51,461 nt of DNA, taken from positions 1-51,461 of IMG/VR virus record IMGVR_UViG_3300034685_000407; one strand, given 5' to 3'. Source of the stretch: a virus. The stretch's first letter is position 1, and each line of letters starts with the position of its first letter. Below the pieces are notes generated by a model. That model had not been told where the DNA came from and made no database searches. It saw only the letters and a program-made list of their open reading frames with translations. Position numbers and translations under genes: made by a program. Positions 3,928 to 47,382 of this stretch are shown here, piece after piece.

Positions 3928-4062
3928 ATAAAAATGCACCCTTTGATGGGGGTGAGCGATTGATTATTTTTGTTTTTGTATGTAGAAACTGTAAGGTATA
4001 TAAAAAATACTTGAAAATTAAAAAAATCTTTTCATATCGTTGTTATAAAGGCGGTGATGCGA

Positions 4063-4647
4063 ATGATTAATGGAATACGTTCGTTTAACACAACCATGTT
4101 AAATGAGATATATAAAAAGACAACTTCTATAGAGAAAATATCAGCCAGAATAACAAGTGGAAAGGTTATTAATAGTGCAGGAGACAATCCCGGAGCTATG
4201 TTAAGTATTAGTAGGTTTGATAGTGATATTAGAGAACATCAAACAGTAATGAATAATATTCAAAATGGTATAACCATGATAGATGTTGCTATTGAGGCAC
4301 TTAATACTGTTAAAACTTATAAAGAAAAACTCGAATCAATGTCATTACAGTATGCCTTCGCAACCTCTTCTACTGATAAATCGGCACTGGAGGATAAAGC
4401 AAATCGAATTATTCAAAACATCCAGGATACATTTAATAATACCTTCTATAATGGGAAAAGGCTTTTTAATGGTCAGGAACATTATATTCACACAGGAATG
4501 TACTCCGAAAATTACACGAAGATTAAGTTCGATGACATAGTAATAAAGACTGATGATTTTATTACGGAACCACCTCCTAATCCGGGGACCGGTTCTACTT
4601 CCCCACCGACATCTACTAGAATATCATGCGAGTTACTTGTACTTTAG
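4063..4647 (+). CDS. Truncated flagellin (N-terminal D0-D1 only)
   Basis: The first ~165 residues match the flagellin N-terminal domain: an opening amphipathic helix, then ISSGK-like ARITSGKVINSAGDNPG and a long coiled-coil helix (ISRFDSDIREHQTVMNNIQNG), then NGKRLFNG. In a normal flagellin a variable centre and a C-terminal D0-D1 helix follow. Here the protein ends in a Pro/Thr/Ser-rich linker and a short unrelated tail after ~195 residues. The last 30 bases overlap the end of a convergent gene. Without the C-terminal helix it should not polymerise like a filament subunit. It is either a fragment left by rearrangement or a trimmed protein with another job. Confidence 0.8.
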   Translation: MINGIRSFNTTMLNEIYKKTTSIEKISARITSGKVINSAGDNPGAMLSISRFDSDIREHQTVMNNIQNGITMIDVAIEALNTVKTYKEKLESMSLQYAFATSSTDKSALEDKANRIIQNIQDTFNNTFYNGKRLFNGQEHYIHTGMYSENYTKIKFDDIVIKTDDFITEPPPNPGTGSTSPPTSTRISCELLVL

Positions 4648-6423: not shown

Positions 6424-6491
6424 TTTTATCCCAAAATCACTTTAATACTTTTGCCTTTTATTTCTGTCCTTGTCGCCTTTTTCCGTACAAT

Positions 6492-6520
6492 TTGATTTTT
6501 TCTATGTTTTGCTATACAAT
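6492..6520 (+). promoter_or_regulatory. Promoter for the secA-like gene
   Basis: TTGATT, 17-base spacer, TACAAT, 40 bases upstream of the TTG start. Confidence 0.55.
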
Positions 6521-6559
6521 TACATAGATACAACAATTTCTATGGAAGGGGTGGTTCTG

Positions 6560-9097
6560 TTGAGTATATTAAAAATGTTTGATTCTAGTGAGCGTTTTCT
6601 CAAGAAAAATAAACGCACACTTCAACATATATTAAGACTTGAAGAAGAAATATCTAAACTATCTGATATTGACTTAAAGAATAAAACAATTGAGTTTAAG
6701 GAAAGATTAAAAAATGGAGAAACCGAAGATGATATACTGCCAGAAGTATTTGCTGTTTGCAGAGAAGCCGGCTGGAGAACTCTTAAAATGAAGCACTTCC
6801 CGGTTCAGCTTTTAGGCGGAATTGCCCTTCATCAAGGAAATATTGCTGAAATGAAAACTGGTGAAGGTAAAACCTTGGTTGTAACACTTCCTGCATATTT
6901 AAATGCTTTAACTGGAAAAGGTGTTCATATAGTTACTGTCAATGAATATCTAGCGAAAAGAGATAAGGAGCAAATGGGACAAATATTCGAATTCCTTGGG
7001 CTTACAGTTGGACTTATATATAATCAGCAGCCAACAGACGAAAAGAAAAGAGCCTACCAGTGCGATATAACATATGGAACTAATAGTGAGTATGGGTTTG
7101 ATTATTTGAGAGACCATATGGTAACCTCTCCGGCACAAAAGGTCCAAAGAGGGCTTAACTACACAATAATAGATGAAGTAGACAGCGTTCTTATTGATGA
7201 AGCAAGAACCCCTCTAATCATTACAAGTCCAAAATCAAAGTCTCCAGAACTCTATATAAAAGCTAATGAATTCATCAAGACATTATCAAAAGAGGATGTC
7301 AATTATTTTGAAAAAGATAAAGCAGTATCTCTCACAGAAAGCGGTATAGAAAAGGCGGAGAAATTTTTTGGTATAGAAAACCTTGCAGACCTTCAAAATA
7401 TAACGATAAATCATCATATAAATGTAGCCCTAAAAGCTCACTATATCACCAAAAGAGATATTGATTACATTATTAAGAATGGCAAAGTCATCCTAATTGA
7501 TCAATTCACTGGTCGTTTAGCTTTTGGCAAACAGTATAGCAATGGTCTTCATCAAGGAATTGAAGCCAAGGAAGGACTTGATATACACCCAGAAAACGCT
7601 ACTGATGCTACTATTACTTATCAAAATTATTTTAAAATGTACAATAAAGCATCCGGCATGACTGGTACAGCCCTTACCGAACTCTCTGAATTTAGACAAA
7701 TTTATGGTCTTGATGTTATTGTTATACCAACAAATAAGCCGGTTATTAGAAAAGATCTTCCTGATTTAGTTTATAAAACTCAAATGGGTAAGTATCACGC
7801 TATTATAAAGGCTATTAAGGAAAGGTATGAGAATGGTCAGCCTGTTCTCGTTGGAACTACTAGCGTGGAAAAATCGGAACTGTTAAGTAATATGCTTAAT
7901 AAAGAAAGCATACCTCATCAGGTTCTAAATGCAAAATTTCACGAAATTGAAGCGTACATTGTTGCCCAGGCCGGAAGATATAAAATGGTTACTATAGCAA
8001 CAAACATGGCTGGTCGTGGTACTGATATTCTACTTGGAGGAAATGCAGAATATCTTGCTGAAGAAGAATTCGTTAAAAAACACGGATTTAAACCTAGTCA
8101 TATAGATGAACATTTAGAGCTTGAAGAAGATGCTAAAATTAGTATGATCTCCGATTTTGAATCGTTAAAAGACCATTTTAAATATATAACAGAAAAAGAA
8201 AAAGAACTCGTTCTCAAGGCAGGTGGATTGTGTGTAATTGGTACTGAACGTCATGAGGCCAGACGTATTGATAATCAACTCCGTGGTCGCTCTGGTCGTC
8301 AAGGAGACCCAGGAGAATCAATATTCTTCTTATCTCTGGAAGATGATTTATTAAGATTATTTGGCGGAGATAAGGTGCAGGCATTGGCTGAAACATTGAA
8401 GTTAGGAGATGATACCCCTATTTCATCAGGTTTCTTATCAAACTTGGTTGAAAATGCCCAGAAAAAGTTAGAAGGTATGAATTTCGGCATTAGAAAAAAT
8501 GTTTTTGACTTTGATAGTATAGTAAGTGTTCAAAGAAAGCATATCTATGAGGATAGGGATAAGGTACTAGATATGAACGCTGACGAACTTCAAGAAGTTG
8601 TTAATACTATGGCCAGTTCTATAATTAATCAAATGGTTGATGGAGTTTGTTCTGTTGATTTAGTCCCTGACGACTGGGATTTAGATAGTTTAATGAAGGA
8701 ATATGAAAAACTCTTTGGAATAAATGTTTTAAATGAAGTAAAGGAAGCTAATGGAGTAGATGAAATAAAGAATGTCCTCTTAACTGCTGCATCTAATCGA
8801 TTAGGTGAATTAACTAAATCATTTACTGATAAAGAAGATTTGTGCAGATTCTTTCGTACTATCATGCTTAATAGTGTTGATGTTTTATGGAAAAACCACA
8901 TAGAAAATATTGAGGAATTAAAGCAAGGTATTGGTCTTCGCAGCTATGGTCAGAAGGACCCCAAAATGGCATTTCATTTTGAAAGCTATGAAATGTACAA
9001 GCAGATGATAGAGCAAATAGCATACGACACCCTATTAAATATTTATCACGCACAAATAATTGAACATAGTGAGCCAGTTGAAGAAGTTGCTGGTTAA
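6560..9097 (+). CDS. secA: SecA preprotein translocase ATPase, lacking the C-terminal zinc tail
   Basis: SecA drives proteins through SecYEG with ATP. The protein (845 aa) has Walker A GEGKT (~101-105), a DEVDSVLIDEARTPLI Walker B block (~204-219), the TAxITYQNYF/MTGTA region, the second nucleotide-binding fold (VGTTSVEKSE, TNMAGRGTDI) and the helical scaffold through a GxRSYGQKDP-like segment. The TTG start at 6560 is chosen because GGAAGGGGTGG precedes it; the longer frame upstream covers the promoter. The C-terminus stops at EHSEPVEEVAG. The usual CxCxSGKKYK(K)C zinc/SecB-binding tail is absent. Presence on an accessory element suggests a second SecA-like copy for special export, though one window cannot show where the host copy is. 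Confidence 0.93.
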   Translation: MSILKMFDSSERFLKKNKRTLQHILRLEEEISKLSDIDLKNKTIEFKERLKNGETEDDILPEVFAVCREAGWRTLKMKHFPVQLLGGIALHQGNIAEMKTGEGKTLVVTLPAYLNALTGKGVHIVTVNEYLAKRDKEQMGQIFEFLGLTVGLIYNQQPTDEKKRAYQCDITYGTNSEYGFDYLRDHMVTSPAQKVQRGLNYTIIDEVDSVLIDEARTPLIITSPKSKSPELYIKANEFIKTLSKEDVNYFEKDKAVSLTESGIEKAEKFFGIENLADLQNITINHHINVALKAHYITKRDIDYIIKNGKVILIDQFTGRLAFGKQYSNGLHQGIEAKEGLDIHPENATDATITYQNYFKMYNKASGMTGTALTELSEFRQIYGLDVIVIPTNKPVIRKDLPDLVYKTQMGKYHAIIKAIKERYENGQPVLVGTTSVEKSELLSNMLNKESIPHQVLNAKFHEIEAYIVAQAGRYKMVTIATNMAGRGTDILLGGNAEYLAEEEFVKKHGFKPSHIDEHLELEEDAKISMISDFESLKDHFKYITEKEKELVLKAGGLCVIGTERHEARRIDNQLRGRSGRQGDPGESIFFLSLEDDLLRLFGGDKVQALAETLKLGDDTPISSGFLSNLVENAQKKLEGMNFGIRKNVFDFDSIVSVQRKHIYEDRDKVLDMNADELQEVVNTMASSIINQMVDGVCSVDLVPDDWDLDSLMKEYEKLFGINVLNEVKEANGVDEIKNVLLTAASNRLGELTKSFTDKEDLCRFFRTIMLNSVDVLWKNHIENIEELKQGIGLRSYGQKDPKMAFHFESYEMYKQMIEQIAYDTLLNIYHAQIIEHSEPVEEVAG

Positions 9098-24002: not shown

Positions 24003-24485
24003 TTAAAATTCTCTAATAAAAGCATCTAAAATATCACAGATTGTAGCTTCTATTCCATACTTCTTCTCTAAATTTGGAATAATCCTCTTGTAAATTTCAG
24101 CAACTTCTCCCAAAGGAGCTTTTCCTATTTTTGTTCCAAGTCCAGGTATAGCAATGGTTTTGCATGATAGTTGATTGGCTCTATCGAAAATAGCATATAG
24201 ACACTTTTCAACAGTTTCAAGACTACATCTTTGTCCAGGCATCTTCATCGTTACTGCATGAATAATATACCTGCACTTTAACTTTCCAGCCTTTGTATAA
24301 TAAGTTTTCCCAGTGTCAAATCTATATCTTACGCATAGGCTAATCGCTTCCTTCTCTATTTCAAATCCGCCAACCTTTTTAATTGCTCCAGCTACTCCTG
24401 CTCCCATGCACCCTACATACCCATTGGCCGCATTTATAATAGCATCTACTTGCAGTTTTGTTATATCTCCTTTTACTACTTTCAT
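24003..24485 (-). CDS. Macro-domain protein
   Basis: Macro domains bind ADP-ribose and often remove it from proteins or nucleic acids, or clear O-acetyl-ADP-ribose. The 160-aa protein has KGDITKLQVDAIINAANGYV, the GxG(V/I)AGAI loop in GAGVAGAIKKVGG, the HAV strand and IPGLGTKIGKAP (the Pro-Gly loop near the distal ribose). ATG 24485 follows AAGGAG by 8 bases. It ends the transcript of the SSSSS-tag cluster's downstream part and overlaps its upstream neighbour's stop closely. On a mobile element it could undo host ADP-ribosylation defence; that is inference. Confidence 0.87.
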   Translation of the reverse strand: MKVVKGDITKLQVDAIINAANGYVGCMGAGVAGAIKKVGGFEIEKEAISLCVRYRFDTGKTYYTKAGKLKCRYIIHAVTMKMPGQRCSLETVEKCLYAIFDRANQLSCKTIAIPGLGTKIGKAPLGEVAEIYKRIIPNLEKKYGIEATICDILDAFIREF

Positions 24486-24490
24486 ACCCT

Positions 24491-24862
24491 TCACTCCTTA
24501 TCAGAAAAATTTGTTCCATCATGCTTATTAATTTCTTCTATAACTTCTTGTACGGCATTATTTAGAACATTTTCCTTTATAGTTTTAAACGCCATATCGT
24601 ATCCTTCAAGGCCACCAAAGTCTATAAGACCTGTATTTCCACAATTAGTACATTTCCATGGAATTGTTCCTCCAAACCCCATTGCTTGGGACATTTTAGG
24701 TTGATCCTTATATTTGTTATATGGTGCAGGGAGTTTTTCCGCCCTGTCTCCCAACCCTCTAGGATACCATTTACCATAACTTTGTATAGCACCTTTGTGT
24801 CCACACTTTAAGCATCTTACATCTTCTTTAACTTCATATAGGCTAACACCTTCGTAGCTCAT
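24491..24862 (-). CDS. Two-knuckle zinc protein, 123 aa
   Basis: Starts at ATG 24862 behind AAGGAGGAG in the conserved ATGATGATGAAGGAGG leader. The protein has CLKCGHKG (residues ~17-24) and CTNCGN (~76-81), probably one zinc ribbon with an inserted basic, Tyr- and Pro-rich loop (GKWYPRGLGDRAEKLPAPYNKY), and ends in a helix. The next upstream tagged frame reads through a terminator, this gene's leader and its start codon in the same frame. A 198-aa fusion is therefore formally possible. The leader and ribosome site argue for a separate start here. Confidence 0.65.
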   Translation of the reverse strand: MSYEGVSLYEVKEDVRCLKCGHKGAIQSYGKWYPRGLGDRAEKLPAPYNKYKDQPKMSQAMGFGGTIPWKCTNCGNTGLIDFGGLEGYDMAFKTIKENVLNNAVQEVIEEINKHDGTNFSDKE

Positions 24863-25087
24863 ATACTTCTCCTCCTTCATCATCATAAAAATAATATTGA
24901 TATATTCTAACATTAACAGTTTTATTAAAACGACATCAAGTTTTACATAAAAAAAGGGAATAGGTGTGCTGTCTATTCCCATCTTTTCACTAGCAGTAAT
25001 ATACTTCTTCAAATCCTCTTTAGATATTCCGTAGCACACGAAACTTGAAGAGCTACTATTTGTAACAAAATCCAATCTAACTTTCAT
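24863..25087 (-). pseudogene. Truncated SSSSS-tag protein (copy A)
   Basis: The frame opens with a perfect tag (KVRLDFVTNSSSSSF, residues 2-16) and ~25 more residues with YGISKEDLKKYIT. Then it enters the stem of a terminator (24956-24980) without a stop. The codons after residue ~38 come from non-coding terminator, promoter and leader sequence, so the original C-terminal part has been lost. The ATG at 25087 is 1 base after the stop of copy B, showing tight coupling. Expression would give either a short tag peptide or the 198-aa readthrough product. Confidence 0.6.
24948..24980 (-). terminator. Terminator inside the copy-A reading frame
   Basis: Minus-strand stem GGGAATAG/CTATTCCC followed by TTTTTTT. 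It lies within an open frame, and the next promoter-like region follows at once. Confidence 0.8.
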
Positions 25088-25088
25088 C

Positions 25089-25466
25089 CTAAAACCCCCC
25101 ATCTTTATTAATAATTAACTCATCAGACGTATACATAAGGTTCATATCACAAAACAATGCCTCTATACCCTCATCATTACAAGCACTTCCTATATATACA
25201 AACATTCCTTTTTTGATAATATCTTGAATATCTTTTGGAAGTCCCGAAATATCATCTTCATAATAATATCGAAGAAGGTCTTGGGTAGACATTTTTTCGG
25301 ATAACCTAACAATGCATTGTGCTAAATCTTCCGCAATTGAGTATATTGGAGACTCTTTTGGGACTTTAAATATATTGAGTAGCATTTCCTTGCTTAATTC
25401 TTCTTTTGATCCAATTACAAAACTCGAACTGCTTGAGTTTGTAACAAAATCCATTCTTATTTTCAT
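25089..25466 (-). CDS. SSSSS-tag protein, copy B (125 aa)
   Basis: MKIRMDFVTNSSSSSFVIG is followed by a helical, acidic body of ~105 residues (KEELSKEMLLNIFKVPKESP, LSEKMSTQDLLRYYYEDD, a FVYIGSACNDEGIEALF strand-loop). The body has no similarity visible to me with the other copies. ATG 25466 follows GGGGAG by 8 bases. A perfect terminator lies only ~30 bases upstream, so this gene depends on readthrough from the long transcript. The stop is one base from copy A's ATG. Serines are coded TCA AGC AGT TCG AGT. Confidence 0.75.
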   Translation of the reverse strand: MKIRMDFVTNSSSSSFVIGSKEELSKEMLLNIFKVPKESPIYSIAEDLAQCIVRLSEKMSTQDLLRYYYEDDISGLPKDIQDIIKKGMFVYIGSACNDEGIEALFCDMNLMYTSDELIINKDGGF

Positions 25467-25496
25467 AGACATCACTCCCCTACAACTTCATTAAGA

Positions 25497-25523
25497 AAAG
25501 TAGCTGGAATTTCCAGCTACCTA
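25497..25523 (-). terminator. Intra-cluster terminator
   Basis: Perfect stem GTAGCTGGAA/TTCCAGCTAC followed on the minus strand by TTTTCTT, between copies C and B. It may set a step-down in expression. Confidence 0.8.
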
Positions 25524-25524
25524 T

Positions 25525-25854
25525 TTATTCCCCCACTTCTCCGTAGTGAAGCCCTATATCAGAGATGTCGATGTCTACATCATACTCCTTTTTAATAAGA
25601 TCCTTGAAGTATTCTTTTATTTGAGGAAGTGTCATTTCATCCATTAAACCCTCAATGTCAATTCCTGCATAGTAGGGTTCACTATAACACCCATAGAAAT
25701 TAACTACCTTTCCTTCATCTACACCATAACTGCATTCAAATTCACTTTTTCCCTCTTTTTGACCAAGGGTTTCAATTATGGAGCTGTCAGATACTCCTAT
25801 TATAAGGAATGAACTACTTGAACTATTCGTAACGAAATCTATTCTTACTTTCAT
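25525..25854 (-). CDS. SSSSS-tag protein, copy C (109 aa)
   Basis: Tag MKVRIDFVTNSSSSSFLIIG, then an acidic body with beta-rich SEFECSYGVDEGKVVNFYG, a short helix (LPQIKEYFKDLIKKEY) and a DVDIDISDIGLHYGE ending. The start follows GGGGGAATATAG. The stop is 26 bases before the intra-cluster terminator. Serine codons are AGT TCA AGT AGT TCA. The body is unlike copies B, D, E and F, so the common part is only the tag. Function unknown. Confidence 0.75.
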   Translation of the reverse strand: MKVRIDFVTNSSSSSFLIIGVSDSSIIETLGQKEGKSEFECSYGVDEGKVVNFYGCYSEPYYAGIDIEGLMDEMTLPQIKEYFKDLIKKEYDVDIDISDIGLHYGEVGE

Positions 25855-25867
25855 CTATATTCCCCCT

Positions 25868-26248
25868 TTAATCATCTGATAATATAATTACAGACTCTCC
25901 ATCAGATATTGAACGTAGAAAGCCTGGCATTGTTTCGTCTCCGTACTCTACGGAAATTTCTCCAATAGCAAAACCTTGGTTAATTTTATCCAGCCACTCA
26001 TCATATCTTCTTTTTGCCCACTCATCCTCTGCAAGCATTTCATCAATGGTTTCATAGCCATAGTATTCAAGAAAATATTTATCTAAATCCTCTTTTGACT
26101 TAATTGCGGATAACATATTTACAAATCCCTCAACCAGCTTTTTAGCAAACATCGGCAGCTTATTTGTTTCATCCTCTGAAAGTTGCTTAAAGGCTACCAC
26201 ATAGCTACTTGAACTAGAGTTAGTTACAAAATCCAACCTTACTTTCAT
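25868..26248 (-). CDS. SSSSS-tag protein, copy D (126 aa)
   Basis: Tag MKVRLDFVTNSSSSSYVV (Tyr replaces the usual Phe after the serines), then a long helical acidic body with FAKKLVEGFVNMLSAIKSKEDLD and DEWAKRRYDEWLDKI, ending in a DGESVIILSDD strand. ATG 26248 follows AAAGGGG by 7 bases; a longer in-frame start upstream runs back through the spacer and into the end of copy E and is rejected. Serines are coded TCT AGT TCA AGT AGC. No metal site is visible. Confidence 0.75.
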   Translation of the reverse strand: MKVRLDFVTNSSSSSYVVAFKQLSEDETNKLPMFAKKLVEGFVNMLSAIKSKEDLDKYFLEYYGYETIDEMLAEDEWAKRRYDEWLDKINQGFAIGEISVEYGDETMPGFLRSISDGESVIILSDD

Positions 26249-26300
26249 GTGCATTTCCCCTTTCTTGCTAGAATAATATAGGGGGAAAGTATCCCCCATC

Positions 26301-26822
26301 TTATCCGATATGTTTTGAGAATTCATCATAGGAGTCAAAGTTTTCTTTAACTTCTTTTAACAAATCTTCCATCTTCAACTCATACTTTTTCATAATATAC
26401 TTAAGAGCATCTTCTTCTGTTAATACACTCCTGGTACAAACAGGACAAATCTCCTTTGGAACAGAATCCCTATCCATGTTATCAAATACATCATCGATAA
26501 CATCTTCATCCCCTTCTTCAACCAGTGCTTTTAACTGTTCTTCCTTCTCTTCTAGTTTTTCTTTATAATAATCATAGTCTGGATCATCCTTTAACTCTTC
26601 TTTGTAATATTCAATCTGTCCATTTAGATAGTTAATAGCTGCTGTCTTTTTCATATCATCTGTTAATTTAAGATGATGTTCGCAAAATACATGCCCATTT
26701 TCACATTCATACATTCCTGCATCCTCAAGGCACATATCCATTCCGCTTTCAACAGAACCGCATATTATACATATAAAACTTGAACTTGAGGAATTTGTTA
26801 CAAAATCCAATCTAACTTTCAT
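26301..26822 (-). CDS. SSSSS-tag protein, copy E, zinc-finger body (173 aa)
   Basis: Tag MKVRLDFVTNSSSSSFICIICG runs directly into a first zinc knuckle (CIICG, ~18-22), followed by CLED..YECENGHVFCEHH (Cys/His-rich, ~31-51) and a distant CPVC (~125-128). These could bind two zinc ions in a RING-like arrangement. The middle is a highly charged coiled coil (YYKEELKDDPDYDYYKEKLEEKEEQLKAL). ATG 26822 follows GGAGGTGTTAGGAT. A GGGGG/CCCCC hairpin lies just after the stop (26280-26296). It is the only copy with an obvious metal-binding body. Confidence 0.8.
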   Translation of the reverse strand: MKVRLDFVTNSSSSSFICIICGSVESGMDMCLEDAGMYECENGHVFCEHHLKLTDDMKKTAAINYLNGQIEYYKEELKDDPDYDYYKEKLEEKEEQLKALVEEGDEDVIDDVFDNMDRDSVPKEICPVCTRSVLTEEDALKYIMKKYELKMEDLLKEVKENFDSYDEFSKHIG

Positions 26823-26838
26823 ATCCTAACACCTCCAA

Positions 26839-27150
26839 TTACATACCTTCATAGGCTTCCTCATCACTACTGAAGTGACCGCCATTCATATTTACCTTAT
26901 CCATGTCAACTCCAATAGCCTCAAAGAAATCCTCAATCATGAAATTATTAAGGAATGTCCAGCCTTTAAATAGCTTGTCTGTTTCAGTTATGCTCCAATC
27001 ATATGACTCTTCAAATAAGTCTAAATTAAGTCTTTTAGCTTCTTCGTTTAAATTCCTCATTTGCTCAATTTGTTTATCTGTTAAATCCTTTTTTAACACA
27101 ATAAAACTTGAACTTGAAGAGTTTGTTACAAAGTCCTGCCTTATTCTCAC
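26839..27150 (-). CDS. SSSSS-tag protein, copy F (103 aa)
   Basis: The most diverged tag: MRIRQDFVTNSSSSSFIV from a GTG at 27150 (GGAAGGAG 9 bases upstream). The body has a Leu/Glu-rich helix (KKDLTDKQIEQMRNLNEEAK), then SYDWSITETDKLF, WTFLNNFMIEDFFEAIGVD and an acidic end. It is first in the run after the GNAT gene (16-bp gap). Serines are coded TCT TCA AGT TCA AGT. Bodies of other copies do not align with it by eye. Confidence 0.75.
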   Translation of the reverse strand: MRIRQDFVTNSSSSSFIVLKKDLTDKQIEQMRNLNEEAKRLNLDLFEESYDWSITETDKLFKGWTFLNNFMIEDFFEAIGVDMDKVNMNGGHFSSDEEAYEGM

Positions 27151-27166
27151 CAAAACACACTCCTTC

Positions 27167-27631
27167 CTACTCTTTTAGTGTTCCATTGTATACATACTCC
27201 CCAATACCATCTACATAATAATTCTCTATTTTTTCATAAATCTGAAAACCATATTTGTTAAATAGCGAAGAGTATGCATTAATTCTTCGTGACGATACAG
27301 TAATGAGAGGTCTAATGCATTGTAAATATCGCATACTTTCCTCAAGTAACTCTCTACCCAAGCCTTGTTTTTGGTATTTAGGCAGCACCATAAGACAGCA
27401 AATTTTCTTTTCTTCCTTTTTTAATATAGAAACTGCTGCTATCTCACCTTTTATATCTATCACAATTATTTCTCTAGTATGGTTTTTAATTCCCTGTACA
27501 ACTTTATCCCAGTACCAGCTCTCAAACTTCGGGTAATCAATTATTAAAAAATTTAAGATTTCATATATTCTTTCTATATAATTATCAAATTGATTACCCT
27601 CTAGTTTTGAAACATATATATGATTGCTCAT
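27167..27631 (-). CDS. GNAT-family N-acetyltransferase
   Basis: The 154-aa protein has the GNAT layout: a central strand (REIIVIDIKGEIAAVSIL, ~55-72), a CCLMVLPKYQKQGLGRELL block with the acetyl-CoA pyrophosphate loop QKQGLG, and a tail with NKYGFQIYEKI, the usual conserved end. The substrate is not apparent; it may be a peptide amine or small molecule. It lies 9 bp after the radical-SAM gene and 16 bp before tagged copy F, so it belongs to this operon. That makes peptide acetylation a reasonable hypothesis. Confidence 0.88.
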   Translation of the reverse strand: MSNHIYVSKLEGNQFDNYIERIYEILNFLIIDYPKFESWYWDKVVQGIKNHTREIIVIDIKGEIAAVSILKKEEKKICCLMVLPKYQKQGLGRELLEESMRYLQCIRPLITVSSRRINAYSSLFNKYGFQIYEKIENYYVDGIGEYVYNGTLKE

Positions 27632-27640
27632 ATCTGTTTT

Positions 27641-28720
27641 TTATCTTAAATCCTTCTCTTTTCTGCCACAAAGCACAATACTTCTTCTAATTGGGCAACC
27701 TCCCAAACAATGAAGTCTTTCATGGCAACCAGAGCATGAATTTTTAAAGTGGCTTCTGAATTCTTCAAACTGCACTGAATCCCAAGCATTTTTTATTGTG
27801 TCATTTGAAATATCATAAGCCCAATGGAGTTCTTGATTATCAAAACTACATGGAATAGCCTTCATGTCTGATGTTATATACATTGACCATCTTCCTGCTT
27901 CACAAGTATCAAAACTTGTCCTGTCAAGGTTTGAGGTTAAATTGATAAGAGCAGGAACATTGCAACTATCAAAGCCAATTTTAAAGCCAAATTTATTGTT
28001 ATCTATGAGTTCAAAGAACTCTTTAACTCTTGGATCATCAATTTTTAGTACATTATCCTCTCTTCCAAGCCCAACAGGTTTGTGAAGCAGGAATATCACT
28101 GCATTAATTCCTTCTGGGAAGCCGTTATTCTTAAGCCTATCAATAGCCTCATCTATTGAGTTATTTCCAAGCACATAATGGATATTGGTCTTAATCCCAG
28201 CTTCAAGCAGCATCTTAATAGCTTTCATTGTGTGTTCTTGACGATACCAACTGATAGCTACTGCCCCACAATATCTCTTACAAATATCTATAATTTCTGG
28301 AGTGAAACCTAGCCCAGAACTTGTGAAATTAGGCACTATTTCATTTTCCCTGCAGTATTTTAAAATTTCCTCAAAGTCCTCGTGCTGATCAACGTCTCCT
28401 CTACCGCCCAAAGCTAATTGGTAGGTCTTTCCCTTACATTCATCTACTATTCTCTTGAAATTTTCAAGGGACATATTTGGATGATGTGTTTTTAGACCGT
28501 TTTGATAGCATTGAACACCTGATTTCATGCAAAGACCTGATTTACCATGCACACAATGTCCCATTATTCCCACATCTATAAGTTCTGGAAAAGATGTCAT
28601 AAATGGGTCTACCCCTGTATCTCTTCCATTTTCTATAACTCCGCTTCTTACATAGAAACCAGTTTTTGTATCAAATATAGATATGAATTTATTTTCCTTG
28701 TCCATTTTTTTAATTAACAT
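27641..28720 (-). CDS. Radical SAM enzyme with SPASM-like C-terminus
   Basis: The 359-aa protein heads the tagged-gene operon. The iron-sulfur/SAM region near residues 55-75 has GHCVHGKSGLCMKSGVQC, a cysteine cluster with unusual spacing rather than CxxxCxxC. LALGGRGDVDQHEDF resembles the GGxGDP motif, and later strands (FTSSGLG, AISWYRQEH, NIHYVLG) build the partial TIM barrel. The C-terminus has SMYITSDMKAIPCSFD, then CSGCHERLHCLGGCP, which is SPASM-like and would hold auxiliary clusters. SPASM enzymes commonly modify ribosomal peptides. A good leader and GGAGGAATGG site precede the ATG. Confidence 0.85.
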   Translation of the reverse strand: MLIKKMDKENKFISIFDTKTGFYVRSGVIENGRDTGVDPFMTSFPELIDVGIMGHCVHGKSGLCMKSGVQCYQNGLKTHHPNMSLENFKRIVDECKGKTYQLALGGRGDVDQHEDFEEILKYCRENEIVPNFTSSGLGFTPEIIDICKRYCGAVAISWYRQEHTMKAIKMLLEAGIKTNIHYVLGNNSIDEAIDRLKNNGFPEGINAVIFLLHKPVGLGREDNVLKIDDPRVKEFFELIDNNKFGFKIGFDSCNVPALINLTSNLDRTSFDTCEAGRWSMYITSDMKAIPCSFDNQELHWAYDISNDTIKNAWDSVQFEEFRSHFKNSCSGCHERLHCLGGCPIRRSIVLCGRKEKDLR

Positions 28721-33829: not shown

Positions 33830-33854
33830 AAAAAAAGGACTGATTATTCAGTCC
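33830..33854 (-). terminator. Terminator overlapping the end of the gyrA-like gene
   Basis: Minus-strand stem GGACTGA/TCAGTCC followed by TTTTTTT. Confidence 0.8.
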
Positions 33855-35976
33855 CTAATAGTCTTATAACATTGTCATTCTTAAAAAGCTTTATTCCTTT
33901 TCCGCCTCTGCCTTGTTTCTTGATTTGGCTTACCATAACTTTTTCTATTCCTTTAGAAGTTTCTATATTTATTACCCCATCATCTTTTTCAGAAGGTAGT
34001 GCGATTGCCCCAATCACCATATCTCCATCTTCTAGCTTGATGCCTCTAACCCCGGAGGCTACTCTTCCAATTTGCCTAATATCAGTGTGATCAAATCTTA
34101 TTACAAAACCATTTTGCGTAATTAATACTATATCATTTGGAATATTTCCAAACATTATATTTATAACCTTCGCTTTTCCTATAAGCTTGATTGCTTGAGA
34201 ATTGCTCTTTACTGCTCTATACTCTTTGAATGCACTCTTCTTTATTTGACCATCGGAGGTTATGAAAAGCACATCTTCCTCATCGGTATATTCATCTTCA
34301 TTACATAGGTTAATTACCGTACTATCTATAGATTGAGGGAAATTCATTCCATTATATTTTAGTGTGTTTCCATCATTATCAAACACATAAATATTTTTAG
34401 TGGAATCTGTCTTTAAGGTTATTCCCTTATCCCCATTATAATTTTCTGATAATTTTTTTACTTTGCCTTTTCCATTTATCTGCAGAGTGAATTTCTCAAC
34501 TTTTGTCTTTAGCTCTATTTTATCAAACTCTTTTATAAGAGTTTTTCTTTCATCATTATACTTTTCCTTGATTGTGAGAAGTTCTGCCTCTACCTCTTTT
34601 AATATATTTTTTTCATTGGAAAGTATTGCTTTAAGACTTTTAATGAGTTTTTCAACATCCTTTAATTCGCTTTGTAGTGTTTTGATTTCAAGTGCTGTTA
34701 ATCTTTGCAATCTTAAATCTAATATTGCTTGAGACTGTTCAACACTAAAACCAAAGTCTTTCATGAGTTTATCTTTAGCAGCCTTTGGATTTTTACTGCT
34801 CCTTATAGCTGCTATAACATCATCAACTACACTAACAGCCTTAATAAGTCCTTCTAAAATATGTTTTCTAGCAGTTGCTTTCGCTAAATCATACTCTGTT
34901 CTTTTAGCTATTATCTCTTTAGTGTGATTAATAAACTCTCTAATCATATCGATAATGGATAAAACTTTTGGCTTTCCGTTTATAAGTGCTACTAAATTGT
35001 AACTAAAACTGCTTTGTAACTCTGTTTCTGCAAACAATTCTGTAAGTAGTTTCTCCGCATTCCCACCCTTATCCATCTCAATTACAATTCTTAATCCTGA
35101 TTTATCTGTTTCATCTCTTAATTCAACGACATCATCCTCTTTACGACCTTCTATATAACTTGCCATTTTAGTAAGTAATGAGGCTTTGCTTACTTTGTAT
35201 GGTAGTTCAGTAATTACAATCTGTCTCTTATCCTCTGGCAATTCTTCAATTAACACTTTTGCTCTTATTTGAACAGAGCCATTGCCTGTTTCATAACATT
35301 TTTCTAATCCTTCAGGAGATACAATTCCTCCGGTTGGAAAGTCGGGACCTTTTATATAATTCAATAGTTCCTTTATTGTTATATTCGAATTCTTTATATA
35401 AGCACAGATAGCATCTATGGCTTCTCCAAGATTATGTGGTGGTATATTACTCGCAATACCTACTGCAATACCAGATGTTCCATTAACAATAAGATTTGGG
35501 AACATTGTAGGCAAAACACTTGGTTCTTTTAAAGAATCATCAAAATTTAATTGCCATGAAACTGTATTTTTATCTATATCTTTAAGCATCTCTACTGCTA
35601 TTTTAGACATACGAGCTTCGGTATAACGCATAGCAGCCGCAGAATCATCAATTGTTCCAATATTTCCATGCCCCTCTACTAACACATATCTTCTATTAAA
35701 TGGCTGGGCCATATTAATCATTGCTTCATACACCGCAGTATCCCCGTGTGGATGATACTTACCTAGCACATCTCCAACAACTCTTGCACTTTTTCTGAAT
35801 GGCTTATCTGGTTCTAAACCTAACTCATGCATAGCATAAAGAATTCTTCGCTGAACAGGTTTTAAACCATCTCTTATATCCGGCAAGGCTCTGCTTTCTA
35901 TAACTTCTCGCGCATAATCTATAAAGCTTTCAGATATTATATCGTTAATTGGTCTTTCTATAATTTTTTCAGCCAT
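33844..35976 (-). CDS. DNA gyrase/topoisomerase IV subunit A
   Basis: Cuts and rejoins both DNA strands through Tyr118 ([10 protein letters not shown]). The protein (710 aa) has the winged helix with [12 protein letters not shown], the tower, [22 protein letters not shown], a long coiled coil (~430-490) and beta-propeller blades. A GyrA-box-like QGRGGKG sits in the last blade (~695), unlike the usual first-blade place, so gyrase versus ParC cannot be decided. The quinolone-site pair is Thr80/Glu84. At 710 aa it is shorter than most GyrA (~800+). The matching B subunit is 1.3 kb upstream. Confidence 0.92.
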
Positions 35977-37296: not shown

Positions 37297-39195
37297 TTAC
37301 ATATTTTCCTGTAGATATACTTTTCTTGGTTCTACTTTACTTCCCATAAAAATGCTAAATAAAGTATCCGCTGTAGCTGCATCATCAAGACTTACTCTTA
37401 CAAGAGTTCTATTATTAGGGTCCATAGTAGTTTCCCACAATTGTTCTGGGTTCATTTCTCCAAGTCCCTTATACCTTTGTATTGTGTAAGTTTTTCCGAT
37501 TTTTTGTTTAGCTTTTTCTAAATCCTTATCTGTATAAGCATATTCAATTTTATTATTATTAAATACTTTATATAATGGAGGTTGGGCTATATAAATATAT
37601 CCCTCTTCAATAAGAGGCCTCATATATCTATAGAAGAAAGTTAATAATATAAGTCTAATATGCGCTCCGTCAACATCGGCATCTGTAGCAATAATAATTT
37701 TATGATAATTTATTTCCTCTATCCTAAAATCATTACCTATTCCTCCGCCAATACTCTTTATTAAACTTCTCATCTCTTCATTTTCAAGGATAGCTTTTAT
37801 GCTCTTTTTCTCAACATTTAATGGCTTACCTTTTAACGGCAATACTGCCTGGGTTCTTCTATTTCTACCTTGTTTAGCAGAGCCTCCTGCTGAATCTCCT
37901 TCAACAATGAAAATTTCTTTTTCTTCAGGATTTTTAGATGAGCAATTCGCAAGTTTTCCTACTGTTAATACGGAAGTAGCATTAAGTTTACTTTTCTTTC
38001 TTGCTATATCTCTTGCGGCCTTCGCTGCTTCTCTGCTATCAAAAGCATTCAAAATCTTATCCATTATATCTTTGGATGCTTTTTTATTTTTCTGTAAAAA
38101 GTCAAGAAGCCCTTCGTAAATTATATTAAATACAACCCCTTTGGCTTCTGGATTTCCTAACTTTGTTTTAGTCTGCCCCTCAAATTGAGTATTTGTCATT
38201 TTAACAGATAATACTGCAGTTAATCCTTCGGTTGTATCACTACCCTGTAACGAAACTTCCTTTTTCCCTCTCTGCTTTTGAGAATTTTGTATCTTTATGA
38301 ATTCATTGAAGGCTCTTGTCAATGCTCCTCTAAAGCCGGCATCATGAGTACCGCCTTCCGTAGTGATAATATTATTAACAAAAGAATATATGTTTTCTGA
38401 ATAACCTTTTGTGTATTGAAGAGCCGCCTCCACAATAATATTGTCTTTTTCTCCTGATATATAAATTACATTGTTATTTACTACATCTTTACTCTCATTA
38501 ATAAATTCTACAAACTGCTTTAATCCTCCATCGTATCTGAATGTCTCTTTCCTGTTTTTGTGTTTATCTATAAGGTTTATGCATATACCTTTATTTAGAA
38601 AAGCTAATTCCCGTAACCTATTCTTTAAGGTATCATATTTGAATTCGATTGTCTCAAATATGGTATCATCCGGGAAAAAAGTTACAGTAGTCCCCGTCTT
38701 ATTATCTTTCCCTACTACAGCAATTTCTTTGATAAGCTTTGTTCTCTCATATCTTAATTCGTAGATATTTCCATCCCTGCTTATTCTAATATTTACCCAT
38801 TTAGATAACGCATTGACAACCGATGCTCCTACTCCATGAAGACCTCCTGATGTTTTATAGGAGTTATTATTAAATTTTCCACCAGCTCCAATAACCTCAA
38901 ACACAAGCCTGACTGCTGGTATTTTCTTTTGAGGGTGTAGATCCACTGGGATACCACGCCCATTGTCTGTAACTGTAATAGAACCATCCTCATTCATAAG
39001 AACATTGATTTCATCGGCGTATCCATTGGTAGCTTCATCTATAGAGTTATCTACAATCTCCCATACAAGATGATGAAGCCCACGACTGCCTGTTCCACCT
39101 ATATACATACCAGGTCTTTGTCTTACATGGGCAAGTCCTTCTACTACTTGTATGGCTTCTGCATTATAATTTTTATCTTCTATTTTTTTATTCAT
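37297..39195 (-). CDS. DNA gyrase/topoisomerase IV subunit B
   Basis: ATPase partner of the A subunit. The 632-aa protein has the GHKL site (VWEIVDNSIDEA near residue 45, DNGRGIPV ~75, GGLHGVGASVVNA ~115), a transducer, and a TOPRIM domain with IVEGDSAGGSAKQGR (~420), DADVDGAHIR (~500) and a YIAQPPLYKV end; NRTLVRVSL is near the C-terminus. ATG 39195 follows GGGGGTATCT; an upstream in-frame extension covers the preceding gene. It lies in one operon with the 74-aa gene at 39216. Confidence 0.92.
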   Translation of the reverse strand: MNKKIEDKNYNAEAIQVVEGLAHVRQRPGMYIGGTGSRGLHHLVWEIVDNSIDEATNGYADEINVLMNEDGSITVTDNGRGIPVDLHPQKKIPAVRLVFEVIGAGGKFNNNSYKTSGGLHGVGASVVNALSKWVNIRISRDGNIYELRYERTKLIKEIAVVGKDNKTGTTVTFFPDDTIFETIEFKYDTLKNRLRELAFLNKGICINLIDKHKNRKETFRYDGGLKQFVEFINESKDVVNNNVIYISGEKDNIIVEAALQYTKGYSENIYSFVNNIITTEGGTHDAGFRGALTRAFNEFIKIQNSQKQRGKKEVSLQGSDTTEGLTAVLSVKMTNTQFEGQTKTKLGNPEAKGVVFNIIYEGLLDFLQKNKKASKDIMDKILNAFDSREAAKAARDIARKKSKLNATSVLTVGKLANCSSKNPEEKEIFIVEGDSAGGSAKQGRNRRTQAVLPLKGKPLNVEKKSIKAILENEEMRSLIKSIGGGIGNDFRIEEINYHKIIIATDADVDGAHIRLILLTFFYRYMRPLIEEGYIYIAQPPLYKVFNNNKIEYAYTDKDLEKAKQKIGKTYTIQRYKGLGEMNPEQLWETTMDPNNRTLVRVSLDDAATADTLFSIFMGSKVEPRKVYLQENM

Positions 39196-39215
39196 AGATA
39201 CCCCCTTTAAAGCCA

Positions 39216-39440
39216 TTAGTTCAGTATCTCTCTGATTAGTGGTCTGTCTATTTCTGTTACCATGTACAACCCTTTGTCTATGTTCGCTATACACTTATCC
39301 CACTTATCTCCTTTGGCTTTTCTGTATTCAACTAATAATGTTTTTAAATCTGCTATAGCATCCTTCTCTGACGGAGCTATAACTTCAAAAGCAGTTTCTT
39401 TAACATTTATATAAAATACTTTATATTTAGTAACTTGCAA
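39216..39440 (-). CDS. Hypothetical protein, 74 aa
   Basis: TTG 39440 is chosen because AAAGGAGGGG precedes it by 5-8 bases; the ATG further up (39494) sits on top of the transcription start. The protein has a VTKYKVFYINVKETAFEVIAP strand pair, an EKDAIADLKTLLVEYRKA helix and ends YMVTEIDRPLIREIL. No known domain. It starts just below a strong promoter with an operator-like inverted repeat and precedes the B-subunit gene by 20 bp. Confidence 0.6.
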   Translation of the reverse strand: MQVTKYKVFYINVKETAFEVIAPSEKDAIADLKTLLVEYRKAKGDKWDKCIANIDKGLYMVTEIDRPLIREILN

Positions 39441-40574: not shown

Positions 40575-40748
40575 TTATTTTGGAGAATTTAACTTTTCTG
40601 AAACAAATTTAGTAAATAAATATAATTCTTTTAATGAAATATCACTTTTATCACTCAATTCTTTTCTTAATTCTTCATTATCAATTCCGCAAAAATCTAT
40701 TATATACTGCACCATATATGTCCTATCTGACAAACTGGCATCTCTCAT
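40575..40748 (-). CDS. Hypothetical protein, 57 aa
   Basis: The start ATG overlaps the DUF192 stop codon by one base (TAATG), a sign of translational coupling. The product opens MRDASLSDRTYMVQYIID and is helical and acidic, with ELYLFTKFVSEKL at the end and one Cys near residue 20. The family is not recognised. It ends just before a bidirectional terminator. Confidence 0.55.
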   Translation of the reverse strand: MRDASLSDRTYMVQYIIDFCGIDNEELRKELSDKSDISLKELYLFTKFVSEKLNSPK

Positions 40749-41104
40749 TAACTCACCATTCTAAATAGTACGGGTTCAAAATCAATTGTTCCTGCCGGCA
40801 ACTCTATTGTATATTTTGCTTTACGGTGTCCCATATCTAATCTCCATGGTTTTATATTTTTAGTTACTTTTACTACATTCAGGTCTTTATCTACATATAT
40901 CACATCTATAGCAAACCTCATAAACATCATATGAATAGAGCTACATGGAGATAATAATAATGCATATTTATCCGGTAGTTGTTTTTGTCCCATAAGCCCT
41001 AAAAATCGAGTATAGAAGTTATCTGCTATGCTTACTTTTTCTGCTACAATATGTTCATTCCCCGCTTTATCGGTTAAGATAATCTTTTTATCTTCAAATA
41101 TCAA
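40748..41104 (-). CDS. DUF192-family protein, 118 aa
   Basis: The sequence has typical DUF192 landmarks: SIADNFYTRFLGLMGQKQL near residue 25, LLLSPCSSIHMMFMRFAIDVIYVDKDLNVVKV (~49-79) and the YTIELPAGTID ending. Members in Firmicutes are often found near pilus or secretion genes; the prepilin peptidase 1.7 kb upstream is in line with that. Start is TTG 41104, after GGAGGCG by 10 bases. The molecular job of DUF192 is not settled. It lies 20 bp after the radical-SAM gene and is coupled with a 57-aa gene downstream. Confidence 0.85.
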   Translation of the reverse strand: MIFEDKKIILTDKAGNEHIVAEKVSIADNFYTRFLGLMGQKQLPDKYALLLSPCSSIHMMFMRFAIDVIYVDKDLNVVKVTKNIKPWRLDMGHRKAKYTIELPAGTIDFEPVLFRMVS

Positions 41105-41124: not shown

Positions 41125-41826
41125 TTATCTAATACTTACATTCCCTTTAGGATCTACTAATATAATACCTTTATTAGAAGCAGTTACTATTTTAGCGTAT
41201 CTATCATACTTTCTTTTGATAAAATCAAGTGCTTCCGATAGTTCTTTTCTATCAGGAATCATATAAGGGTAAGTTTTTACACGCCCAAGATTTTCTATCT
41301 CTGGGAAACCTATTTTCACAACACCCATACTTACTAAATCATCAACCGTTTCATCAAGAGTATAGATATTCACTCCAGATGGCGGAACATATACTTCAAC
41401 ATCCAAGTTCATATTTAAACAATGTCTTATTGCATAATTTACTTTCATATGGGAATCCTCAATCCTTGTGATGTGATTATGAATATTAGGAATACTGTTA
41501 TGATAATAAAAAATCACTTTATCAACCTTAAAAGCCTTTAAAGTTTTTAACTTCATAAGTGCATTTTCGGCATATCCTGTCGTATAAAGTACAACCTCGT
41601 GTTTATTATTTTTGAGCCACCATATCACATCTTCTAAATTATCAGAAAGTAACGGCTCTCCCCCTGTCAGTCCTACTTTTTCACATTCATAATTTTGCAA
41701 AATGGATTTAATCTTATCTAATGATAAAATATCTGTTTCTTTACTATCTGCATTGACTGGACAGTGAAAACAATTAAGAAGACACTTGTGGGTTAATTCA
41801 AACCTTATTTCTTTATACTTTTCCAT
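41125..41826 (-). CDS. Small radical SAM protein
   Basis: The classical CxxxCxxC motif is CLLNCFHC (residues ~15-22). GLTGGEPLLSD is the SAM-binding GGE motif near residue 55, then a VVLYTTGYAENAL strand, and later EVYVPPSG and GFPEIENLG continue the barrel. The protein is ~233 aa, lacking a SPASM extension. Substrate is unknown. ATG 41826 follows GGGGGTGG by 6 bases. It lies in an operon with DUF192. It differs fully from the SPASM enzyme at 27641, so the element has two unrelated radical-SAM enzymes. Confidence 0.85.
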   Translation of the reverse strand: MEKYKEIRFELTHKCLLNCFHCPVNADSKETDILSLDKIKSILQNYECEKVGLTGGEPLLSDNLEDVIWWLKNNKHEVVLYTTGYAENALMKLKTLKAFKVDKVIFYYHNSIPNIHNHITRIEDSHMKVNYAIRHCLNMNLDVEVYVPPSGVNIYTLDETVDDLVSMGVVKIGFPEIENLGRVKTYPYMIPDRKELSEALDFIKRKYDRYAKIVTASNKGIILVDPKGNVSIR

Positions 41827-41847
41827 AAGGACCACCCCCTAATTTGA

Positions 41848-44959: not shown

Positions 44960-47173
44960 TTATATTCTCTCTTTTAATTTTGAGTTTCTTGTTTCAACCT
45001 TATTGTTCTTTACAGCCATAGCTAAAGCTTTTTTCTGCCCTATTAGAATAACTTTCTTTTTAGCACGAGTTACGCCAGTATAAAACATATTTCTCTGTAG
45101 AAATAGATAGTGCTGCGTAGTTACAGGGATAATTACAATATCGTACTCACATCCCTGGCTTTTATGAATTGTGGTTGCATATGCAAGGTCAAGGTCCTCA
45201 AAATCATCTCTTATATAATCTATATCTTTATCGCTTATATTTATTGTTGCTAAATACTCATCATCCTGTCTATCAATAGACTTTATAATTCCCACATCAC
45301 CATTATATACCTCTTTATTATAGTCATTTCTGTACTGCATAACCTTATCATTTACACGAAAAGTCTTTTTTCCAAAGAATATCTCAAGAGCAGACTTTTT
45401 AGGATTTATAACATCCTGCAGTAATTGGTTTAAATTATCTACCCCAGTTGATGTTCTTGTCCTAAATGGACTCAACACTTGGATTTTATTAATGTCCTTG
45501 CACCTTGCATACTCTTTCATTACCTGCTGTTTGATGATTTCAGGCAATCTTTCATTATCATCTTCCTCAATAAAAATGAAGTCATCAGAGTATTCAAGTT
45601 TGTGTTGACCCTTATTGATTAGGTTCGCATTAATGACTATCTTGCTTGTATTAGCTTGTCTAAATATCTCATTTAGCATTACTACAGGAACTTTTCTACT
45701 ATCTATCAAATCTCTGAATACATTACCTGCACCTACTGATGGTAGCTGGTCTGCATCTCCGACAAAAATAACCTTTGTTTTAAGATCAATTGCTTTTAAA
45801 AGTTTTGTCATAAGCAGCATATCAATCATGGATCCTTCATCTATGATTAACAGGTCCGCTTCTATAGGGTTATTCTCATTCCTATTGCAAACTATCCTAT
45901 CCCCATCTGTAGAATACTTATATTCAAGAGTTCTATGAATTGTTTTAGCTTCAATTCCAGTAGATTCTTCCATTCTTTTGGCTGCACGACCAGTTGGAGC
46001 GGCTAACACTATTCTGCCATGAGGGAAATTTCTTTTATACACCTCAATGATACCTTTGATGATAGTTGTCTTTCCTGTTCCAGGACCACCTGTTATTACT
46101 GCAATATTTGTAGTTCCAGATAATCTCATAGCATCTTTTTGCTTTGGAGTATAAGCTATGTTATTTTTCTTTTCCAAATCAGAGATGATGCTATCTATAT
46201 CCAACTTATATTTTGCCGGAATAGAGTGTATCATTTGAGACAACTTGAAGCCACAGTATTTTTCACATCCATAATATATTGGAAGGTATATATCTGTATC
46301 TTCTATCACTAACTCTTCATTTTCCTGCATCTGTTCAAGAATTGGAATAATATCCTCTTTAGTGATTTCTCCCTCATTGGTGTTGAGTATCTTTTTAATT
46401 CTTATCAAAAGGCTTCTTCTCGTAACAAAGAGGTGTCCATCCTTTTCGGCAGCCTCTGTTAATACATGAATTATACCAGCCTTGATTCTCTCAATATGCT
46501 TAAAATCAATATTACAAGCTCTTGCAATCTGATCTGCAGTTTTAAATCCAAAACCATCTATATCCTTACATAATCTATAAGGGTTTTCTTTTAATAACTC
46601 AATGGCCTTATCTTGATACCTTTTATAAATCTTTATAACCTTTTTGTTTGATACATTATAAGGTTTCAGCATAAACATAAGATCATTCAGGTATTCATAC
46701 TGCCTATAAGACTTTGATATAGTTTCCACCTTGCTTTTAGATATACCTTTTATCTCTATTAACAGTTCTGGACTATACTTAATAACATCCAAAGTTTTAC
46801 TTCCAAACCTTTCAGTTATAAGTTTAGCTGTTTTTTCGCCTATTCCTTTAAAAAGACCACTACTTAAATATTTAACCATTGCCTCGTTAGATGTAGCTTC
46901 AGGTAGTAATTCCTTTGCCTCATTCACAGAAAATCTCCACCCGTACTGGGGATGCTTTGTCCACTTTCCGGTTAACTGAAGTTCCTGATTAATAACTGCT
47001 CTCATAAAACTACCTACTGCAACAAATGTGTTTTCATATATAGTGTGTCTTGCAAATTCGGGGATTTCCTCCGATTTCAACACAACTATAGCGAAATTTT
47101 TGCCTTCATCCATTTTAAGAATTTTTGACACTGTACCTACTATTTGAACATTTTCATTTTTTATTGTTTCCAT
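44960..47173 (-). CDS. RecD2-like helicase, copy 1
   Basis: A 5'-3' DNA helicase of superfamily 1B. The protein (737 aa) has the N-terminal OB-like and helix-hairpin-helix repeats (SGLFKGIGEKTAKLI, IKGISKSKVETI, IDGFGFKTADQIA), Walker A GGPGTGKTT (~360), motif Ia APTGRAAKRM, DEGS at motif II, GDADQLPSVGAG (III) and YATTIHKSQGCEYD with TGVTRAKKKV (V-VI). ATG 47173 follows AAGGAGG by 8 bases. Motif II is DEGS instead of the DEAS/DESS usual here. Without RecBC it fits RecD2 or phage Dda-like roles in replication or repair. Confidence 0.9.
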   Translation of the reverse strand: METIKNENVQIVGTVSKILKMDEGKNFAIVVLKSEEIPEFARHTIYENTFVAVGSFMRAVINQELQLTGKWTKHPQYGWRFSVNEAKELLPEATSNEAMVKYLSSGLFKGIGEKTAKLITERFGSKTLDVIKYSPELLIEIKGISKSKVETISKSYRQYEYLNDLMFMLKPYNVSNKKVIKIYKRYQDKAIELLKENPYRLCKDIDGFGFKTADQIARACNIDFKHIERIKAGIIHVLTEAAEKDGHLFVTRRSLLIRIKKILNTNEGEITKEDIIPILEQMQENEELVIEDTDIYLPIYYGCEKYCGFKLSQMIHSIPAKYKLDIDSIISDLEKKNNIAYTPKQKDAMRLSGTTNIAVITGGPGTGKTTIIKGIIEVYKRNFPHGRIVLAAPTGRAAKRMEESTGIEAKTIHRTLEYKYSTDGDRIVCNRNENNPIEADLLIIDEGSMIDMLLMTKLLKAIDLKTKVIFVGDADQLPSVGAGNVFRDLIDSRKVPVVMLNEIFRQANTSKIVINANLINKGQHKLEYSDDFIFIEEDDNERLPEIIKQQVMKEYARCKDINKIQVLSPFRTRTSTGVDNLNQLLQDVINPKKSALEIFFGKKTFRVNDKVMQYRNDYNKEVYNGDVGIIKSIDRQDDEYLATINISDKDIDYIRDDFEDLDLAYATTIHKSQGCEYDIVIIPVTTQHYLFLQRNMFYTGVTRAKKKVILIGQKKALAMAVKNNKVETRNSKLKERI

Positions 47174-47227
47174 ATTTTTTTCCTCCTTAAACCACTCAAT
47201 TATCTTCTTCTGTCCCATAACACTGCA

Positions 47228-47349: not shown

Positions 47350-47382
47350 GTTAAAAAAGTAGCCCATAGTTGAGCTACTTTA
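47350..47382 (-). terminator. Terminator after helicase copy 2
   Basis: Minus-strand AAAGTAGCTC/GGGCTACTTT stem followed by TTTT; the stop codon lies inside the upstream arm. Confidence 0.75.

Follow-up and report, generated by a model that had tools for sequence, protein, structure and literature searches.

Radical S-adenosylmethionine (SAM) maturases are known for the modification of short peptides and of a few single proteins. Their hallmark is a set of three cysteines for the catalytic [4Fe-4S] cluster, canonically spaced as CX3CX2C, and their chemistry includes the conversion of serine to formylglycine by anSME and epimerisation by EpeE. The substrates of SuiB-like systems mostly consist of a conserved N-terminal leader and a C-terminal core. 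Here, an enzyme of this kind is considered together with six tag genes (T1 to T6) in a viral record (IMG/VR IMGVR_UViG_3300034685_000407), the whole 51,461 bases of which were analysed and are referred to as the window. The six proteins begin with nearly the same 16 residues, termed the head or tag. Comparison with related loci shows that this tag marks a defined gene pair, consisting of a tag gene and a radical SAM/SPASM enzyme, often within STAND/NACHT defence-type operons.

SuiB/SuiA (streptide), SkfB, CteB, PqqE and anSME represent the nearest solved structures to the window enzyme, and share with it the SPASM cysteine pattern and a likely substrate gene in the adjacent position. Unlike in SuiB/SuiA-type systems, the likely substrates are whole folded proteins and the shared site is N-terminal. 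The enzyme differs from described SPASM maturases in that its first Cys motif varies within the family and the NCBIfam equivalogs are not reached, while the tagged proteins differ from precursors of ribosomally synthesised and post-translationally modified peptides (RiPPs) in that a short leader and C-terminal core are absent, the proteins being long and, in the case of T5, modelled as folded. The nearest published idea found is that of nucleoside triphosphate-dependent conflict systems with radical SAM-modified peptides (FxSxx, RxD and FtsH-associated; eLife 2020, PMC7159879). In the passages of that paper that were available, these systems resemble the tag cassette in that conflict operons pair a small substrate gene with a radical SAM enzyme, accompanied in some cases by vWA/MoxR or STAND-like partners, but their more conserved motif is a C-terminal, peptidase-released peptide instead of an N-terminal head; the head tag does not appear in the same passages.

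The cellular tag loci also resemble AVAST (Avs) systems, as a NACHT/STAND protein precedes the tag-enzyme pair in 29 of them, with a best PADLOC Avs2 match of 1e-24. However, no PADLOC model matches the small gene of these operons or the tagged protein scanned, the NCBIfam Avs2 score stays far below its cut-off (69.5 versus 1000), and no STAND/NACHT gene was recognised in the part of the window examined around the array. For the head itself, searches of Pfam, NCBIfam and the PDB gave no match, and neither a model nor a solved structure describing it was found there; no publication on the head or its tie to the enzyme was found in a search that mostly left subscription papers and preprints outside. 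The tag-enzyme system is regarded as a variant of the radical SAM modification systems, undescribed in the libraries searched.

A constant head on unrelated bodies

A sequence-only reading of the window had proposed six consecutive minus-strand genes with a common head and non-aligning bodies. The open reading frames were confirmed, with all N-termini fitting M[KR][IV]RxDFVTNSSSSS[FY], and the dissimilar bodies fall into different blastp clusters. The array lies where it had been placed (24863-27150), with a slightly longer true extent of 24491-27153. Every gene has its own start codon with upstream purines. A six-frame search of the window, including a search for NSSS, found the DFVTNSSSSS[FY] run only in T1 to T6, and the reversed control pattern gave 0 matches in the window and in every genome searched, so that the head array is not a product of chance. 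The serine run is written in a different mixture of AGY and TCN codons in each of the six copies, and therefore the repeat lies in the protein and not in the DNA.

The head scans comprise at least 117 stretches of bacterial or archaeal genomes and at least 120 stretches of viral contigs, using a pattern that preset K2, F7, V8, N10 and F16, so that conservation at those positions is partly due to selection of the matches. The earlier placing of the tag in Firmicutes and phages thus stands as far as both carry it, but the tag is not Firmicute-specific, being found in bacteria, archaea and viruses. A position-free motif search of 1.93 Mb of the listed stretches returned at least 471 matches, with a Met exactly six residues ahead of the Phe in 443 of the 471; the others have alternative starts, carry a Met at position 5 or are cut off. 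The motif is therefore N-terminal, and not C-terminal as required of the precursors of FxSxx-type conflict peptides. In the 439 distinct tagged proteins listed, positions 6 and 9 co-vary (D-T in 215, G-S in 168, D-S in 16 and G-T in 12). All five serine positions of the corresponding genes mix AGY and TCN codons, in 66 combinations, with about half of each at positions 11-13 and 15, whereas AGY outnumbers TCN at position 14, where Thr is also frequent. This near-even split shows that selection acts on the protein, and it is at the protein level that the head is conserved across archaea, bacteria and viruses.

Head identity is 83-86% where body identity is only 20-40%, and the head is the only feature common to all tagged proteins among the representatives compared. 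Of 249 homologues found by their bodies, from loci also fetched by tag or enzyme, 236 carry the strict head, 9 carry variants (for example DYVTN or FVGN), in 3 it is cut off or misplaced and in 1 it is lost. A T1-family paralogue (L139, around 7139, plus strand) has a head reduced to MKIEPSSF and lies on a 214 kb contig on which the enzyme was not found. The head is caught by phrog_7397, annotated as of unknown function, in 89 of 133 tagged representatives. A tblastn search with the bare head gave 0 matches in phages and 7 weak ones in plasmids, and was not used as the low-complexity filter probably masks the serine run.

The bodies are not homologous throughout, which had been named as the outcome that the idea of a constant head on unrelated bodies depended on: the tagged proteins include unrelated known domains, namely LRR_5 (6e-26) and BRCT (7e-9), as detected by Pfam in representatives. 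Single-linkage blastp separates the tagged proteins listed into at least 152 groups, with a median length of 135 amino acids, mostly 100-200 and up to 919. The clusters of T5, T1, T2, T3 and T4 have 89, 23, 22, 10 and 3 members, respectively, and T6 stands alone, with no relative among the fetched loci. As each of T1, T2, T3 and T5 has its own recurrent tagged family, the viruses carry a repertoire and not random fusions. The body family of T5, the largest, also occurs in cellular STAND operons and in stand-alone Lachnospiraceae tag-enzyme pairs. Its AlphaFold2 (AF2) model has a predicted local distance difference test (pLDDT) score of 87.9 with a confident body, whereas residues 1-9 score below 50 and the first strand starts at residue 13, within the head. 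A fold search with the T5 body gave no meaningful match in the PDB and BFVD, and T1 gave no match in isolated phages. T2 and T6 contain CxxC motifs of the zinc-binding type.

The radical SAM/SPASM enzyme and its linkage to the tag

Gene clustering around the tags reveals one outstanding neighbour, a single radical SAM/SPASM family present in at least 139 tag-seeded loci (91 cellular, 48 viral). In the loci listed, the enzyme is on the strand of the tag gene in 143 of 143 cases and directly adjacent in 109, an arrangement of maturase gene beside predicted substrate gene as seen in RiPP pairs. In the converse, enzyme-seeded test on 80 viral loci, 63 had strict tags no more than 10 kb away and a further 6 had variant tags; 178 of 183 tags share the strand of the enzyme. 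Of 40 viral contigs with a tag, 28 also have the enzyme, at 1e-78 or better; most of the 40 had been chosen because the fetched stretch had no enzyme. The enzyme-negative contigs are mostly shorter than 135 kb, but also include contigs of 162, 215 and 222 kb. Among 150 Lachnospiraceae genomes, 3 have the tag; the enzyme is present in these 3 and, as a shorter match, in one other, an overlap with a chance of about 3e-4 when the seed genome is excluded (hand calculation). In the phylum of Methanosarcina, tag and enzyme genes were found in the seed genome only, giving one positive genome. Furthermore, 173 of 50,697 phage records have the enzyme and 175 have the RB16 tag protein, with host counts that are almost the same, which is consistent with these being the same phages. 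In phage RB16, the enzyme (RB16p156) lies ~20 kb from the tag genes (RB16p111 and p106), and the pseudo-T-even phages carry both, so that the link is not only one of shared operon position.

These results bear out the sequence-only reading in its suggestion that the head is probably a modification or recognition tag beside a modifying enzyme, and its check for recurrent neighbours is answered by one family, shared by cellular and viral loci and by the same phage host groups. Of the neighbouring modifying enzymes it pointed to, the radical SAM enzyme alone is conserved; 0 of 200 related viral loci have a homologue of the GNAT or the macro-domain protein of the window. Barring scattered DNA methylase and RecD2 matches, the related loci share with the window only the enzyme and tagged genes.

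The window enzyme reaches the Pfam cut-off for SPASM (PF13186; 26.4 bits, cut-off 21.5), with Radical_SAM slightly under its cut-off. All three cluster cysteines are present, but in a CX7CX6CY motif (GHCVHGKSGLCMKSGVQCY) instead of the canonical CX3CX2C, which other members of the family retain; the first and third cysteines are invariant in the family. The first Cys motif accordingly ranges from CX3CX2CY, through longer first gaps and CX2CYK in viruses, to CX7CX6CYQ in Firmicutes and the window. A seven-Cys SPASM region is read from the translation (Cys 273, 291 and a CX2CX5CX3C run from 332), with cysteines 273, 291 and 332 conserved in the family alignment. The AF2 model (pLDDT 95.6) has the predicted radical SAM fold, a partial TIM barrel. 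Foldseek ranks SuiB best (2e-12), followed by PqqE, SkfB, anSME and CteB, with viperin and BtrN also matching, and a profile search likewise ranks SuiB first with PqqE, SkfB and anSME behind. Peptides or proteins are the substrates of the nearest solved enzymes. All NCBIfam equivalogs fall far short of their cut-offs (best 34.5 bits versus 400), and phrog_7293, which matches the enzyme at 7.7e-27, is annotated as of unknown function.

The type of head corresponds to the type of enzyme: in the loci listed, CYQ enzymes occur with D6/T9 heads in 104 of 109 cases and non-STAND CYK enzymes with G6/S9 heads in 59 of 61, while STAND operons mostly have Thr14. On the enzyme tree, head type requires 12 changes versus 39 when shuffled. 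The tree falls into four blocks. Two are mostly viral, one with G-S heads and one with D-T heads, the latter including a Lokiarchaeote; a third comes mostly from STAND operons of several phyla, and the fourth, from Firmicutes and viruses, contains the window.

As a separate observation, the enzyme match spans one or two TAA, TAG or TGA codons in six viral contigs (G377, G381, G363, G370, G385 and G387), which may reflect recoded stop codons in these phages.

Operon company and the predicted role of the head

In 29 cellular enzyme loci the gene order is a STAND/NACHT protein, usually a small gene of ~140 amino acids, the tag gene and the enzyme, with the genes overlapping or nearly so in almost all 29. 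Among the hosts are Bacteroidota, Pseudomonadota, Cyanobacteriota, Verrucomicrobiota, Campylobacterota, Omnitrophota, Bacillota and methanogens. Scans of three large STAND/NACHT proteins gave PADLOC Avs2 matches of 1e-15 to 1e-24, and a metallo-beta-lactamase protein matching Avs1a and LmuA stands first in some of these loci. The small gene, ~125-170 amino acids, lies between STAND and tag genes in 28 loci (e.g. L014, L015, L017 and L052), and the examples scanned match nothing in Pfam, NCBIfam or PADLOC. Other Firmicute loci consist of the enzyme with a single tag gene only, or hold MoxR-like and vWA (DUF2201) genes with long leucine-rich repeat tagged proteins.

Two kinds of viral neighbour were also seen. 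A protein of ~720-740 amino acids lies near the tag genes of RB16 (L204), RB43 (L202) and one other virus (L152), with a vWA-like annotation in RB16 (RB16p109). Homologues of the major vault protein (MVP shoulder and repeat domains) lie near a tagged gene in three viral contigs (L141:5997-8405, L231:1862-4270 and L148:1-1389); with just 3 viral loci concerned, a vault shell was rejected as a general partner.

The pair is fairly likely to form a mobile two-part cassette, in which a dedicated radical SAM/SPASM maturase would modify the shared head on the variable bodies of one or several substrate proteins, the first 16 residues being what it recognises and alters. That the head is the target of the enzyme appears highly probable from sequence comparison. 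Because there is a single enzyme and its putative substrates share only the head, the head is most simply also the modified part, and a change located there rather than in the body is quite likely. It would most probably be irreversible and lie inside residues 6-16; by analogy, the candidates are cross-linking through Phe7 or Phe16, serine oxidation to give formylglycine, and epimerisation. Once finished, the head could be a common docking or reactive part, with the variable body setting what it is attached to. In a STAND operon the modified head could gate or arm the sensor, and the viral arrays with their own enzyme would probably be used against, or replace, the host version, which they could compete with, imitate or exploit.

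The strongest competitors accept the pair and place the chemistry elsewhere. As a RiPP-like leader, the head would only bring the protein to the enzyme, and the variable body would be modified. The closest fold, SuiB, and the leader-core substrates of most SuiB-like systems speak for such an arrangement, but bodies of mostly 100-200 and up to 919 amino acids, LRR_5 and BRCT among them, have no residue in common beyond the head, and leaders usually drift whereas the head hardly varies and has many modifiable side chains; this makes a leader unlikely. About equally unlikely is an unmodified docking or delivery signal for a scaffold, a shell or the enzyme itself, with the enzyme product elsewhere, e.g. 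a small molecule. The very conserved, low-confidence and probably disordered N-terminus would suit such a signal, SPASM-type enzymes act on small molecules too (BtrN is among the matches), and some tag loci adjoin major vault protein or vWA genes. However, the head residues vary with the enzyme clade, and the enzyme alone recurs, with no recurrent shell or scaffold.

In a plain paralogous family with one ancestor and drifted bodies, the head would be the conserved start of a single fold, as the first strand of the T5 model beginning inside it and possible distant relationships among some body clusters could indicate; proteins with LRR_5 and BRCT are not one fold, though, and residues 1-9 are modelled with low confidence despite several near-invariant positions, leaving this reading quite improbable. 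A DNA or RNA element at the gene start, such as a translation enhancer or recombination site, might be expected from tandem genes with similar 5' ends. It is contradicted by codon use, with AGY and TCN nearly even at four of the five serine positions and many codon combinations, and by protein-level conservation from archaea to viruses, and its probability is close to nil.

Several points weigh against modification of the head and against its role in conflict. The tag-seeded loci carry the tag by ascertainment, a bias from which the enzyme-seeded test is free. No partner was found in 11 of the 80 enzyme loci and in 12 of the 40 viral contigs; some of these are fragments, but two of the negative contigs are larger than 200 kb. 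Linkage by itself does not indicate which residue changes, and the correspondence between enzyme and head follows tree clades and may therefore reflect shared descent, not co-adaptation. A role in phage-host conflict, argued from operon company, is somewhat favoured.

If the two-part cassette is real, many 'hypothetical proteins' from archaea to phages become members of one system, in which a single enzyme family apparently serves dozens of protein families through a portable N-terminal head. As the cellular form is linked with STAND/NACHT operons of the immune type, the head may be a missing part in triggering or arming the sensor. Judgement is evenly balanced on the fullest version, in which the radical SAM enzyme would install a new structure in a head common to unrelated folded proteins, as an interchangeable part of STAND/NACHT immunity copied as viral arrays. 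Were the modified head such a shared immune part, the system would rank higher than a variant of radical SAM modification. Both genes are present in the E. coli phages RB16 and RB43, and the idea is therefore directly testable.

The array and its surroundings in the window

The enzyme, the GNAT gene, T1 to T6 and the macro-domain gene form one tight minus-strand run with intergenic gaps of 1-58 bp (Table 1).

Table 1. Genes of the tag run in the window, with heads given as sequence (aa, amino acids)
Feature	Position	Strand	Head	Remarks
Radical SAM/SPASM enzyme, predicted head modifier	27641-28720	minus		Pfam, family alignment, AF2, Foldseek
GNAT acetyltransferase, between enzyme and tag genes	27167-27631	minus		Pfam PF13508; gaps 9 and 16 bp
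T1	26839-27150	minus	MRIRQDFVTNSSSSSF	103-104 aa; start GTG, or TTG one codon upstream
T2	26301-26822	minus	MKVRLDFVTNSSSSSF	173 aa; CxxC zinc-type body
T3	25868-26248	minus	MKVRLDFVTNSSSSSY	126 aa
T4	25525-25854	minus	MKVRIDFVTNSSSSSF	109 aa
T5	25089-25466	minus	MKIRMDFVTNSSSSSF	125 aa
T6	24491-25087	minus	MKVRLDFVTNSSSSSF	198 aa; two CxxC pairs
Macro-domain protein, directly after T6	24003-24494	minus		Pfam PF01661 2e-23; ~2 bp gap from likely ATG

The GNAT and macro-domain proteins, a thymidine kinase and a second radical SAM gene were rejected as partners, having no homologues in related loci. The latter encodes a MoaA-like protein (41125-41835, minus strand) that is not seen in other tag loci and lies beside a DUF192 protein (40748-41104, minus strand).

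Elsewhere, the viral record encodes a full-length SecA-like translocase ATPase (6470-9097, plus strand) and a flagellin-like N-terminal fragment (4054-4647, plus strand), both recognised from the translation. The A and B subunits of a DNA gyrase or topoisomerase IV lie close together on the minus strand (33844-35976 and 37297-39294), as do two adjacent RecD2-like helicase paralogues at 44960-47218 (by Pfam) and 47375-49600 (by reading).

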